Source: Necropsobacter massiliensis (GTDB lineage: Bacteria > Pseudomonadota > Gammaproteobacteria > Enterobacterales > Pasteurellaceae). From it: DNA of 64,000 nt. The notes beneath the pieces were generated by a model. The model was given only the letters and a program-made list of their open reading frames with translations, searched no databases and was not told where the DNA came from. Below are positions 4,958-60,081 of the stretch, in pieces. The position numbers and the translations under genes are program-made. The stretch is from assembly GCF_000827595.2 (NCBI RefSeq), contig NZ_LN776183.1, forward strand, positions 248,001 to 312,000, given 5' to 3'. How positions within the stretch are numbered: position 1 is the stretch's first letter; every line of letters begins with the position of its first letter.

Positions 4958-5893
4958 ATGAAAGTAGCAGTATTAGGCGCCGCAGGCGGTATCGGTCAGG
5001 CATTGGCATTATTGTTGAAATTACAGTTACCGGCAGGTTCCGAATTATCGTTATATGATATTGCGCCGGTAACTCCGGGGGTTGCGGCGGATGTCAGCCA
5101 TATCCCGACCGCGGTTAAAGTGCAGGGATTTGCCGGTGAAGATCCGACACCAGCCTTGCAGGGGGCGAATGTGGTATTGATTTCAGCCGGTGTAGCGCGT
5201 AAACCGGGAATGGATCGTTCCGATTTATTCAATATTAATGCCGGTATTGTGCGCAATTTGATTGAAAAAGTCGCGGTCGTATGTCCGCAAGCCTGTATCG
5301 GCATCATTACCAATCCGGTGAATACGACAGTTGCGATTGCAGCGGAAGTGCTGAAAAAAGCCGGTGTGTACGATAAACGTAAATTATTCGGGGTCACCAC
5401 ACTTGATGTGTTGCGCTCAGAAACCTTTGTTTCCGAATTAAAACAGCTGAATGTTTCGCGTACAGCGGTACCGGTGATCGGCGGTCATTCCGGCGTGACG
5501 ATTCTGCCGTTGCTGTCTCAGGTACAGTTTGCCGAATGGACAGAGGAAGAAATCGCCCCGTTGACCAAGCGTATCCAGAATGCTGGTACGGAAGTGGTTG
5601 AAGCGAAAGCGGGTGGCGGATCGGCGACTCTTTCCATGGCACAGGCGGCGGCCCGTTTTGCCCGAGCGTTGGTGAAAGGTTTGAGCGGTGAAACCGTAGT
5701 GGAATGTACTTATGTGGAAGGCGACGGCAAATATGCCCGCTTCTTCGCACAACCGGTTCGTTTGGGTAAACACGGAGTGGAAGAAATTCTGCCGATCGGT
5801 CCGTTAAGCGCGTTTGAACAGCAGGCGCTGGAGGCGATGTTACCGACATTACGTGCGGACATTGAGCTGGGTGAGAAATTTGTTAATTCGTAA
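4958..5893 (+). CDS. mdh: Malate dehydrogenase (NAD-dependent)
   Basis: Interconverts malate and oxaloacetate with NAD in the cytoplasm, working in the TCA cycle or, in fermenting Pasteurellaceae, the reductive branch to succinate. It has 311 residues, the normal length. The N-terminal NAD motif is [12 protein letters not shown] (7-18), and the substrate-loop arginines lie in [12 protein letters not shown] (about 79-90). The catalytic His lies in GGHSG (about 174-178). The ATG at 4958 has a good AAGGAG site. It has its own promoter and a terminator at 5913-5938. Confidence 0.98.
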
Positions 5894-5912
5894 CGCGAAT
5901 TTATTTGTTCAA

Positions 5913-5938
5913 AAAGGCGGCAATTAAGCCGCTTTTTT
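5913..5938 (+). terminator. Rho-independent terminator of mdh
   Basis: GCGGC (5917-5921) pairs with GCCGC (5928-5932) and is followed by six T (5933-5938), directly after the mdh stop. Confidence 0.85.
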
Positions 5939-5967
5939 GCTTTTTTAGCAAAATATTTAGCTAAAAC

Positions 5968-5983
5968 CGTGAGTTAGTTCACA
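5968..5983. promoter_or_regulatory. Candidate CRP site ahead of the small-RNA promoter
   Basis: CGTGA, six bases, TCACA: nine of ten core bases of the CRP consensus. Its centre (5975.5) lies about 61 bases before the predicted transcription start at 6036-6037, the classic class I activation distance. Confidence 0.6.
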
Positions 5984-6000
5984 AATTTTGTAATAACCAT

Positions 6001-6029
6001 TTGCAGAATGAGGGTTAATTCTGTATTCT
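6001..6029 (+). promoter_or_regulatory. Candidate sigma-70 promoter of an orphan small transcript
   Basis: TTGCAG (6001-6006), exactly 17 bases, TATTCT (6024-6029). No open reading frame follows before the terminator at 6087-6116, so the promoter would drive a short noncoding transcript. Confidence 0.6.
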
Positions 6030-6035
6030 ACGCCC

Positions 6036-6116
6036 ATCAAAAACAAGTGCTATAACAAAATAGCCGACATATTTTGCTTTCCGAGTAGTGCCTCTTTCAA
6101 TGAGGCACTTTTTTTT
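6036..6116 (+). ncRNA. Candidate CRP-regulated small RNA, about 80 nt
   Basis: Predicted transcript between the promoter at 6001-6029 and a strong terminator. It contains a 5' hairpin (GCTAT 6049-6053 with ATAGC 6060-6064), then an unpaired pyrimidine-rich stretch, then the terminator stem. That is the usual architecture of trans-acting sRNAs. The mdh gene already has its own terminator, and the downstream gene is on the other strand, so neither explains this promoter/terminator pair. I do not recognise the sequence as a named sRNA. Inference only, with no expression evidence. Confidence 0.5.
6087..6116 (+). terminator. Strong rho-independent terminator of the candidate sRNA
   Basis: AGTGCCTC (6087-6094) pairs perfectly with GAGGCACT (6102-6109), followed by a run of eight T (6109-6116) on the plus strand. 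The minus strand has no T run after the stem, so the terminator serves a plus-strand transcript. Confidence 0.85.
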
Positions 6117-6119
6117 ATC

Positions 6120-7019
6120 TTATTTATACCAATTATAATCAGGATTAATCAGATTTTCTTCTATCGCGCCCCAAGGCAAAATCAGAGTCACATCGCCGTA
6201 GGCATAAGCGTTTAATGCGTAAGGCGGATAAACGAAATGAATGCCTTCCGGGCTGAAATAAAATTGCGGCGAAATATGGAAATCTTCTTTAGCAATAAAC
6301 GGTGGCTCCCCATTTATTACGTTGTCGATATAGTCTTTCCATAGAAATTCGGTAAGTCTAGGTCGAGCACCTGTCACGACTAAATCATCAAGCCCGATGA
6401 TCGCTTTTTTGTTGATATCAATATTGGTGTAAAACAGATAGTGCATGCCGTGTGCGCCGCCGTTATAGGTGGATAGCGCCTCTTCAAAACTGACCACATT
6501 CTGACGCTGACCGAGATAATTCGCGTTGATACATAAGTCGAATCCCGGCGTCGGTTCCTGCTTGATTTCATTAACGGCACGAGTATGTATACTTTCCAGC
6601 AGTTTGATTAAATCCGCTTTGCCGGGATTATCTGATTCTGGCTGACTTTTTTCATCGAAATTAATAAGGTAGCCATATTGTTTCTTTATCAGTAAATTAT
6701 CCAGCCATTGTACGCCGGTTTCCGGCAGATAATCGCAGGTATTGACTGTCGCCTGTGCAATATCCGGATTATTTTCCGCTTTGGCATTGAATTCAATTTG
6801 TGCTTGTTGGTTAAAAAGCTCGGTGATCTTAACCTGCAAAGCAGGTACATCGGCTTTGAGCTGAGTCAGCTCGGTTTGTGCTTTTTCTGTTGCGGCTTGC
6901 AGCCGGCTGATGGTTTGTTGCGATTGCCGCAATTGCTGTTGTAATCGGCTGGCTTCTTCGTCATGGCAGGCTGAAAGCAGTACCGCAATGATGAGGAGGG
7001 CGGGAACGGATTTTGGCAT
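6120..7019 (-). CDS. Lipoprotein with DUF3298/RsiV-like domain
   Basis: Predicted outer- or inner-membrane lipoprotein of 299 residues with unknown function. The ATG at 7019 is preferred over the GTG at 7028 because AAGGTG sits 6 bases before it. The signal peptide ends in a lipobox LLSAC (about residue 18). A coiled coil follows, rich in Gln and heptad Leu (about 24-75). The C-terminal half resembles DUF3298 domains found in RsiV-type proteins: STYNGGAHGMHY, an FxPEGIHFVYPPY-like segment and a final LPWGAI. It follows argS on the same strand but behind an argS terminator. Confidence 0.8.
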   Translation of the reverse strand: MPKSVPALLIIAVLLSACHDEEASRLQQQLRQSQQTISRLQAATEKAQTELTQLKADVPALQVKITELFNQQAQIEFNAKAENNPDIAQATVNTCDYLPETGVQWLDNLLIKKQYGYLINFDEKSQPESDNPGKADLIKLLESIHTRAVNEIKQEPTPGFDLCINANYLGQRQNVVSFEEALSTYNGGAHGMHYLFYTNIDINKKAIIGLDDLVVTGARPRLTEFLWKDYIDNVINGEPPFIAKEDFHISPQFYFSPEGIHFVYPPYALNAYAYGDVTLILPWGAIEENLINPDYNWYK

Positions 7020-7039
7020 AATTGTCACCTTATCAGATG

Positions 7040-14297: not shown

Positions 14298-15239
14298 ATG
14301 AATATTGTTTTTCTTGATAGTACCGCCATACCGAAACATATCCCGATTCCCCGCCCGACTTTTGCGCATCAATGGACTGAATACGAACATACCTCAGCCG
14401 CACAAACCGTAGAACGCGCCAAAGATGCCGATATTGTGATTACCAGCAAAGTTGTGTTTAACCGCGAAATCTTACGTCAGCTGCCGAATTTAAAACTGAT
14501 CGCTTTAACAGCGACCGGCACCAATAATATCGATCTGGTGGCCGCGCAGGAGTTGGGCATTACGGTGAAAAACGTCACCGGTTATTCCTCGGTGACGGTG
14601 CCGGAACATGTGCTGGGTTTGATTTTCGCCCTCAAACACAGCCTGATGAACTGGTATAAAGATCAGCTCAGCGCCAAATGGGCGGATTGCAAGCAGTTTT
14701 GTTATTTTGATTATCCGATTACCGATGTGCGCGGTGCTACTTTAGGTATTGTCGGCAAAGGCAATCTGGGAAACGAAATCGGGCGTCTGGCGACGGCATT
14801 GGGCATGAATGTCATTTATGCGGAACGCAAAGATGCGATCACCATTCGTGACGGTTACTTGCCGTTCGAGGCGGTTTTGCGTGAAGCGGATATTCTGACC
14901 TTACATTGCCCATTGACCGAGACCACCACCAATTTGATCAATGCCGATACCCTCAAGCTGATGAAGCCGAGCGCCTATTTAATTAATACCGGACGTGGAC
15001 CGTTGGTTGATGAAAAGGCGTTGGTGGCAGCGCTGGAAAACGGTACGATTGCGGCAGCGGCGTTGGATGTCTTGGTGAAAGAACCGCCGGAAAAAGACAA
15101 TCCGCTGATTCAGGCGGCAACCCGTTTACCGAATCTGATTATCACGCCGCATATTGCCTGGGCATCAGACAGTGCGGTGACAACATTGGTAAATAAAGTG
15201 ACGCAAAACATTGAAGAGTTTGTCGCGACAGCCAAATAA
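14298..15239 (+). CDS. D-2-hydroxyacid dehydrogenase (glycerate dehydrogenase-like)
   Basis: NAD(P)-dependent reductase of 2-ketoacids, 313 residues. The ATG at 14298 is chosen over 14220 because it follows a strong AAAGGAGAG and begins the family's first strand MNIVFLDSTAIP. The dinucleotide motif is GIVGKGNLGNEIG (about 150-162). Catalytic regions are NTGRGPLVDE (Arg) and TPHIAWAS (His, about 285-292). Related to Haemophilus HprA-like proteins next to kdsA. The exact substrate (hydroxypyruvate or other) cannot be told from sequence. Confidence 0.9.
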   Translation: MNIVFLDSTAIPKHIPIPRPTFAHQWTEYEHTSAAQTVERAKDADIVITSKVVFNREILRQLPNLKLIALTATGTNNIDLVAAQELGITVKNVTGYSSVTVPEHVLGLIFALKHSLMNWYKDQLSAKWADCKQFCYFDYPITDVRGATLGIVGKGNLGNEIGRLATALGMNVIYAERKDAITIRDGYLPFEAVLREADILTLHCPLTETTTNLINADTLKLMKPSAYLINTGRGPLVDEKALVAALENGTIAAAALDVLVKEPPEKDNPLIQAATRLPNLIITPHIAWASDSAVTTLVNKVTQNIEEFVATAK

Positions 15240-58900: not shown

Positions 58901-59362
58901 TTAAACTAAAAAGCGCATTAATAACATCGCCAGATAAGCGTTTATCAGGCAAATACCGAATAGTGCGGGATAATGTTTTCCCGCAACGCCTAAAACGCCC
59001 AGCACGCGCCCCATATATTGTACAGTGGATCCGACCAGCGCCATTCCCGGCAACAGAATGGCGATGTGCTGTGCATTTAAAGTGCCTTCCTGCACCAACG
59101 CGACCAGTACGCCGGCCGCACCGCCCCAGCTTAAAAAGGCGGCGAGAAATACTGCGATGGATTCGCCTGGCAGCCCTAGCGGCGCCATAATAAAGCCGAT
59201 ATATTCGCCGATAAATTTTAATAATCCCGAGGTGTTGAGAATATAAATGATCACAAATGCCATTAATACGTTCGGAATCGTGCTGTGAATGGCAATATTC
59301 CAGCCTTTTCTGGCGCCTTCGACGAAGATGTCGGTGACTAATTTGGTTTCGTTGCCGCTCAT
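58901..59362 (-). CDS. yjiG: YjiG family membrane protein (nucleoside-recognition/Gate domain)
   Basis: 153 residues with about four helices and a Gate-domain pattern: RKGWNIAIHSTIPNVLMAFV, EYIGFIMAPLGLPGESIAVFLAAF (in part) and GMALVGSTVQYMGRVLG. Overlaps the yjiH stop by four bases. Probably forms a transporter with YjiH. Substrate unknown; a peptide degradation product fits the neighbouring peptidase. Confidence 0.9.
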   Translation of the reverse strand: MSGNETKLVTDIFVEGARKGWNIAIHSTIPNVLMAFVIIYILNTSGLLKFIGEYIGFIMAPLGLPGESIAVFLAAFLSWGGAAGVLVALVQEGTLNAQHIAILLPGMALVGSTVQYMGRVLGVLGVAGKHYPALFGICLINAYLAMLLMRFLV

Positions 59363-59997
59363 AGGGTTTCCTCGTTCTCTTTAACAAATTTTTTCACATA
59401 TAAACGCATCAGGTTGGCACCGAAAATTTTGAAAACAAAAATAATACCTAAACACATTGCGATAGATACCGGTGCGATCTGTCCAAATTGATCGCTGACT
59501 TGCAATAATGGCGCGAAAGAAGCCAGAAAGTTGGTTAATAATGCACCGGCACTAAATTGAAAGGCGGAAAAAATCAACAATTCTTTATGGCTGATTTTTC
59601 TTTCGTCGTATAACAATTTGGTGGTTGAACTTCCAGCATCGGTACTTTGTGTACTGGCAATTAATGAAATGGAACAAATTCCCGGAATACCCATCAGCGG
59701 TTTTAAAATCGGGCTTAACCATTTTGAGGCGGCAATCAGCGCGCCATAATGTTCAAAAATTGCAACGAAGCCGAGCGCCAGCATCACACTGGGGATCAGC
59801 GTGACGGCAAATAAGAAACCACCTTTTGCACTGGAACCGCCCGCTGTTTTTAACCATTCCGGAAATTGCCCGCTCAGCTTGCCGAAATCGAAAATACCGC
59901 CCCACCAATCTTTGGCAAAACCGCCGAAAAAGATAATGGCGCATAGCAGGGAAATGGTGCCTGCGATCAACATTTTAGGATTGATATCTTGTTTCAT
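59359..59997 (-). CDS. yjiH: YjiH family membrane protein (nucleoside-recognition/Gate domain)
   Basis: 212 residues. The ATG at 59997 follows GAAGGAGAAAC and is better than the in-frame start at 60024. Several helices and the Gate-domain segment EHYGALIAASKWLSPILKPLMG, then STQSTDAGSSTTKLLY, are typical of YjiH. First gene of yjiH-yjiG-peptidase. The promoter has TATATT at 60044-60039 and a class II CRP site at 60066-60081. Confidence 0.9.
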   Translation of the reverse strand: MKQDINPKMLIAGTISLLCAIIFFGGFAKDWWGGIFDFGKLSGQFPEWLKTAGGSSAKGGFLFAVTLIPSVMLALGFVAIFEHYGALIAASKWLSPILKPLMGIPGICSISLIASTQSTDAGSSTTKLLYDERKISHKELLIFSAFQFSAGALLTNFLASFAPLLQVSDQFGQIAPVSIAMCLGIIFVFKIFGANLMRLYVKKFVKENEETL

Positions 59998-60038
59998 TGT
60001 TTCTCCTTCTATCGGTAACGTCATAAATCTTGAACCTC

Positions 60039-60081
60039 AATATACGCTAAAATAAGGTAAGAAAATGTGATTTATTTCACG
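60039..60081 (-). promoter_or_regulatory. CRP-dependent promoter of yjiH-yjiG-peptidase
   Basis: CRP site TGTGA-6-TCACG (60066-60081, centre 60073.5) and -10 TATATT read on the minus strand (60044 to 60039). Transcription from about 60032 puts the CRP centre at -41.5, the exact class II spacing; no good -35 is needed at such promoters. Confidence 0.7.

Follow-up and report, generated by a model that had tools for sequence, protein, structure and literature searches.

An RF02898 small RNA gene downstream of mdh and its predicted control by CRP in the Pasteurellaceae

Introduction

The 64-kb window that we analyzed (the whole stretch of DNA, from Necropsobacter massiliensis) contains a CRP-like site, a promoter with a 17-bp spacer, and a terminator with a T run in the space between mdh and the next gene. 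What do these elements serve? A first-pass annotation, made from the sequence alone, pointed out that mdh has its own terminator, that the next gene runs the other way, and that the space between them lacks coding capacity; it predicted an sRNA of about 80 nt that is activated by CRP and responds to carbon status. We find the CRP-like site, the promoter, and the terminator at the places where the annotation put them, all on the plus strand; the mdh terminator and the convergent neighbor are as described, and the ORF list contains no ORF of at least 50 aa between the two genes. On the plus strand, about 50 nt of noncoding sequence lies between the promoter and the terminator (within 5965-6116). 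The features of the locus, in window coordinates, are as follows.

4958-5893, plus strand: mdh, malate dehydrogenase, the upstream neighbor (TIGR01772)
5910-5939, plus strand: the separate terminator of mdh (terminator prediction)
5965-5986, plus strand: CRP-like site AACCGTGAGTTAGTTCACAAAT, centered at 5975.5, the best in the 180 bp upstream of the RNA (0/100 shuffles reach its score)
6001-6006, plus strand: -35 element TTGCAG, with 25.5 bp between the CRP center and its first base
6024-6029, plus strand: -10 element TATTCT, separated from the -35 element by 17 bp
6036-6116, plus strand: predicted sRNA transcript, a member of RF02898 (start placed from the -10 element; model match at 6040-6120)
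6049-6064, plus strand: 5' hairpin GCUAU...AUAGC (covariation: 4/5 pairs changed on both sides, 99.3% of cells paired)
6073-6086, plus strand: invariant core UUUGCUUUCCGAGU, a proposed anti-Shine-Dalgarno-like seed (the same in 125/126 homologues)
6087-6116, plus strand: intrinsic terminator, an 8-bp stem (6087-6109, covarying) followed by the T run
6120-7028, minus strand: DUF3298 lipoprotein gene, the convergent neighbor (PF11738)

Results

Identity and distribution of the RNA

In an Rfam covariance-model search, RF02898 (AaHKsRNA20) matched the locus over its full length (75.1 bits, cut-off 43, E-value 6.1e-12, untruncated, model positions 1 through 77 of 77); this is the single gathering-level Rfam match in the whole window. 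An Rfam/Infernal search had been proposed as a check by the first-pass annotation, which was unaware that the RNA is a named family. The second-best match at the locus, ctRNA_pT181, scores 34 bits, below its cut-off of 56, and was taken as chance; CyaR (RF00112) is absent from the 12 Rfam matches at the locus with E-values up to 5.

A homologue has been detected experimentally. Published passages on Actinobacillus pleuropneumoniae describe Rna02, an 81-nt RNA that was found by Hfq co-immunoprecipitation, was seen on a Northern blot, and is one of four sRNAs that are undetected or lower without hfq; its authors place it in RF02898, a family that they call poorly characterized (PMC9577009). In the same passages, expression of Rna02 is mostly or only aerobic by Northern blot (PMC9577009); in a second report, RT-PCR was positive in aerobic cells, with anaerobic cells and vesicles negative (PMC10708910). 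The window RNA belongs to the same family over the full model and shares with Rna02 its core, its length, and the place of its terminator; the window copy differs in that it sits after mdh, in the Necropsobacter group, and CRP is unmentioned in the published Rna02 passages. Both the Rfam match and the homologue thus bear out an sRNA gene of about 80 nt; the transcript that the annotation expected at 6036-6116 is on record in a relative only, that is, in A. pleuropneumoniae.

RF02898 is matched in 126/140 Pasteurellaceae species (125 over the cut-off), representing 37/43 genus-level groups and including A. actinomycetemcomitans, H. influenzae, Histophilus somni, and [H.] ducreyi, among others. 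None of 14 control genomes has a match, and all 20 matches in an order-wide sample of 295 genomes are inside the Pasteurellaceae. The remaining 14/140 family genomes have no match in a search run with Infernal's stricter filters, which lose weak matches, and one of these genomes (G005) is 81% complete; the 14 genomes do have mdh, and TTTGCTTTCC was not found in the 900 nt after it. Loss of CRP as the cause of the absence was rejected, because all 13 of the sRNA-less genomes searched (G005 was left out) encode Crp-type (PF00325) proteins, with CRP and FNR not sorted from each other in all of them.

The gene mdh is the upstream neighbor in only 36/126 homologue loci; some of the remaining loci have argS, DUF3298, or mdh downstream, and many have none of these four tested genes in the fetched flanks (up to 2 kb). 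Thus, the RNA gene is free-standing and not simply part of an mdh transcript. As judged from sequence, 6036-6116 is a free-standing sRNA gene of RF02898; the RNA itself is an already named family, and the proposed control by CRP is the new part.

The CRP-like site and its promoter

The CRP-like core GTGAGTTAGTTCAC occupies 5969-5982 and is one letter off the lac CRP site. With transcription starting at approximately 6036 as placed from the -10 element (+1 being the seventh base after the hexamer), we count the center of the site at -60.5 (the first-pass annotation gave approximately 61 bases). The promoter is weak by consensus (7/12 hexamer letters) and is not listed by a sigma-70 scan of the window; it is credible because it is conserved, not because of its consensus match. 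Exact GTGAN6TCAC occurs five times in the window (0.64 expected), so one such site alone is modest evidence. Among the other occurrences, those at 14565, 28650, and 34866 are all inside ORFs, and a perfect one at 60067-60080 is intergenic and immediately precedes an ORF on the minus strand (59359-60024). The genome itself encodes CRP (NF008732, 386.9 bits) with a recognition-helix stretch, RETVGRILKMLEDQ, that is the same as in E. coli.

For each homologue we scored CRP-like 22-mers over the 180 bp upstream and kept the best one, whatever its position; the promoter was picked separately. A score of at least 0.72 is reached by 119/126 species, and in 106/126 the independently chosen promoter is also in phase with the site; both together occur in 0.13% of 6300 dinucleotide shuffles of the upstream parts. 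The -35 element contains TTG in 121/126 species and the spacer is 17 bp in 119/126. In a direct test, we asked for TTG at exactly 25.5, 35.5, or 45.5 bp from the CRP center and TANNNT 16-18 bp further on; 114/126 species pass (80 at 25.5, 3 at 35.5, and 31 at 45.5 bp), although related species are not independent, so these counts make the events look more numerous than they were. Conservation across the family extends to the promoter, the CRP-like site, the hairpin, and the terminator; the first-pass annotation had named a lack of conservation of promoter, hairpins, and terminator in close relatives as a result that would speak against it, and this is not what we find.

The spacings of 25.5, 35.5, and 45.5 bp correspond to the activating class I positions -61.5, -71.5, and -81.5 of the E. 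coli lac promoter, for which published passages give CRP cooperativities of 763, 105, and 11.9, respectively, with 0.99 at -66.5 and 1.27 at -76.5 (PMC6301791). According to the same source, shortening the promoter by 1 bp makes -60.5 equivalent to -61.5 at lac (PMC6301791); the window promoter, with -60.5 and a 17-bp spacer, therefore has the CRP-to-(-35) spacing of lac -61.5. At 25.5 bp, the window site lies upstream of the -35 element on the activating face of the helix, as in class I promoters. The lac and window promoters have this distance in common; the lac promoter has an 18-bp spacer, whereas the window promoter has a 17-bp spacer and would drive a noncoding RNA. Within genus-level groups the spacings are mixed (25.5/45.5 in g20, 25.5/35.5 in g36, and 34.5/45.5 in g18), which indicates that the site has moved by approximately whole helical turns more than once.

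Twelve species fail the direct test. Four of these are off by 1 bp (G002, G047, G048, and G055), and in G046 a second site that is in phase can be seen by eye. Another two are A. actinomycetemcomitans genomes (G014 and G015), where the site is degenerate. Four g11 genomes (L082, L083, L104, and L106; Testudinibacter, Chelonobacter, and Pasteurella testudinis) have a half site or a misplaced best match, and no CRP-like site was found upstream of the RNA in [H.] ducreyi (G071, L095), though the sRNA is kept; in [H.] ducreyi and g11, loss or change of control is possible.

In G085 (L101, about 1450-1578), an insertion of approximately 30 nt seems to lie in the first hairpin loop of the sRNA 5' end; AAATAAGTGCTAT occurs earlier, right after a -10, and the CRP-promoter spacing is kept.

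RNA structure and the invariant core

The single-strand fold of the window RNA has z = -3.34 (1/200 shuffles equally good). For covariation, we used 58 distinct homologues out of the 126, with at most two per genus-level group. In the hairpin and terminator together, 96.9% of cells are paired and 9/13 pairs changed on both sides; e.g., the first hairpin switches between lineages from GCUAU/AUAGC to GUUGU/ACAAC. The covariation score is 0.500, as compared with 0.231 in shuffles (0/500 as high) and at most 0.110 in slid controls; by further pair types, one of five covariation measures, 100/500 shuffles do as well.

The 14-nt core is constant across 37 genus-level groups and its flanks are variable; the sole exception is G026 of group g6. 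The centroid fold leaves the core unpaired; the minimum-energy fold pairs its first letters with 5' CAAAA. RNAalifold draws a small helix inside the core, the pairs of which hardly vary, so it is without covariation support. We propose UUUGCUUUCCGAGU, which looks like an anti-Shine-Dalgarno sequence, as the seed.

Searches for targets

No convincing mRNA target emerged from own-genome, family-wide, doxX, and ndh searches. In its own genome, CGGAAAGCAAA has five exact occurrences, one being the RNA itself and the other four within ORFs, and occurs with one mismatch in 124 places, of which the loci of 30 were inspected; one of the latter, AGGAAAGCAAAATG, starts a 235-aa ORF that we take to be a glutamine amidotransferase. 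The second exact GGAAAGCAAAATG in this genome (L264) precedes only a 20-codon frame. Across the family, GGAAAGCAAAATG is found in 100/140 genomes, far above the reversed control; at the inspected loci the genes mostly differ between genera, so we regard most of these sites as the usual context of a Shine-Dalgarno sequence and ATG. The sRNA-less genomes seem poor in such sites (two in 13 genomes, with G005, which has three, left out), but they are also poor in the composition-matched GGAAASSAAAATG (five sites in the same 13). In 12 genomes, TCGGAAAG near ATG is no more frequent than the reversed control.

The doxX gene (PF07681), found in 118/140 genomes, was picked because it recurred. We fetched the 5' regions of 90 orthologues, of which 84 were readable; six of g6 were dropped because the start was not found by the pattern. 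GGAAAGC precedes the doxX start in 8/32 sRNA-bearing genera, as compared with 0/387 background starts (65 loci). The site is absent in the window's own genus and present in two of six sRNA-less genomes (in G005 and G008, not in G051, G053, G104, and G132), and mdh and ndh likewise have Shine-Dalgarno regions preserved through common descent; doxX may be a target, as a weak lead. Before the doxX start in several loci (L432-L439, L456, L507, L509, and others) we also observed GGAAAGCAAA, which is complementary to the sRNA core. For ndh, AGGAAAGC occurs in g3 and g10, not in the other sRNA-bearing groups examined (30/107 genomes); it is also absent in G102, which is without the RNA.

Discussion

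The Rfam match and the family-wide CRP geometry are far beyond chance. Overall, the RNA is very probably a CRP-cAMP-activated, Hfq-dependent, base-pairing sRNA of RF02898. CRP-cAMP would bind 5965-5986 and recruit RNA polymerase (class I, via alpha-CTD) to the weak sigma-70 promoter at 6001-6029; at high cAMP, an RNA of approximately 80 nt would be made, the poly-U terminator end of which would load on Hfq. The invariant UUUGCUUUCCGAGU would then pair with ribosome-binding sites of the purine-rich GGAAAG type on trans-encoded mRNAs, and the outcome would mostly be repression. The comparative evidence strongly suggests CRP dependence, from which a response to carbon status would follow; the role of Hfq would carry over from published work in one species, A. 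pleuropneumoniae; the invariance of the core points to its function as a seed; and targets and their repression are predicted. The points that run counter to the CRP model are the aerobic pattern, the exceptions among the CRP sites, the one covariation measure that 100/500 shuffles reach, the minimum-energy pairing of the core, the lack of a standout target, and the 14/140 genomes without a match. The first-pass annotation was right on the observation, and the evidence supports its interpretation as largely right; the dependence on oxygen, the only published condition effect, was not foreseen in it.

CRP alone does not obviously explain the published difference between aerobic and anaerobic cells; this is the main loose end, and to account for it, cAMP levels would have to depend on oxygen or a second regulator would have to act. 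The mostly or only aerobic expression of Rna02 by Northern blot (PMC9577009), together with the lack of confirmation by RT-PCR in anaerobic cells (PMC10708910), raises the alternative that oxygen, not carbon, sets the RNA level, either because another protein of the CRP/FNR family mainly uses the site or through a second, oxygen-linked regulator (repression by ArcA/FNR). The consensus for CRP is TGTGA-N6-TCACA and that for FNR is TTGAT-N4-ATCAA; the sites fit the former rather than the latter, and the class I CRP geometry is exact in 114/126 species, so we regard an oxygen-set level as unlikely.

Because no convincing target was found, the locus could also be a mere remnant of a promoter and a terminator, or yield a decoy or a stable 3' fragment that does not act by base pairing. 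We consider this improbable: the 14 nt are the same in 125/126 homologues across 37 genus-level groups while the flanks vary, the hairpin covaries, mdh is upstream in only 36/126 loci, and the homologue Rna02 binds Hfq according to the published passages.

In the Pasteurellaceae, CRP-S sites, with the core TGCGA-N6-TCGCA, serve competence genes. Assignment of the promoter to this Sxy-dependent regulon instead of the ordinary CRP-N would account for the TGCGA left halves in G099 and G103; however, the window halves are CGTGA and TCACA, and the full TGCGA...TCGCA is in no best site of the family, which makes the assignment very improbable. Finally, a tiny peptide, as suggested by a TTG-CTT-TCC-GAG-TAG reading inside the core, can be dismissed, because the reading has four codons only, its stop is lost in the 20/126 homologues that read GAGTGN and in the one core exception, and the locus has no ORF of at least 50 aa.

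For the CRP-activated base-pairing sRNA, the closest comparison in working is CyaR, an enterobacterial CRP-activated, Hfq-dependent sRNA. The likeness, by analogy, would be in CRP activation, Hfq dependence, and an anti-Shine-Dalgarno-type seed; sequence and taxa differ from those of RF02898, and we do not claim homology. We give even chances to a broader reading in which RF02898 is the core post-transcriptional arm of CRP in the Pasteurellaceae, a functional counterpart of the enterobacterial CRP sRNAs with a separate origin, a family-wide frozen 14-nt seed, and a CRP site that has hopped repeatedly by whole helical turns of 10 and 20 bp (within g20, within g36, and between groups). If true, this would be nature's own version of the classic helical-phasing experiments. 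The promoter offers comparative evidence that CRP stays on the activating side of the helix during evolution even as its distance changes. A conserved, uncharacterized sRNA of animal and human pathogens and commensals gains a likely regulator and a testable seed, and the CRP regulon of these bacteria (Haemophilus, Pasteurella, Actinobacillus, and relatives) would acquire a post-transcriptional layer.

We found no link between the RF02898 RNA and CRP in the literature searched (titles, starts of abstracts, and passages, with subscription papers mostly outside the search), so both the CRP control and the helical-turn conservation of the promoter appear to be unreported in the searchable literature. 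In two genomes of A. actinomycetemcomitans, the species that gives the family its name (G014 and G015; L002 and L003), the CRP site has a degenerate left half (GTAGG), 26.5 bp away; this degenerate site may be why control by CRP went unnoticed.
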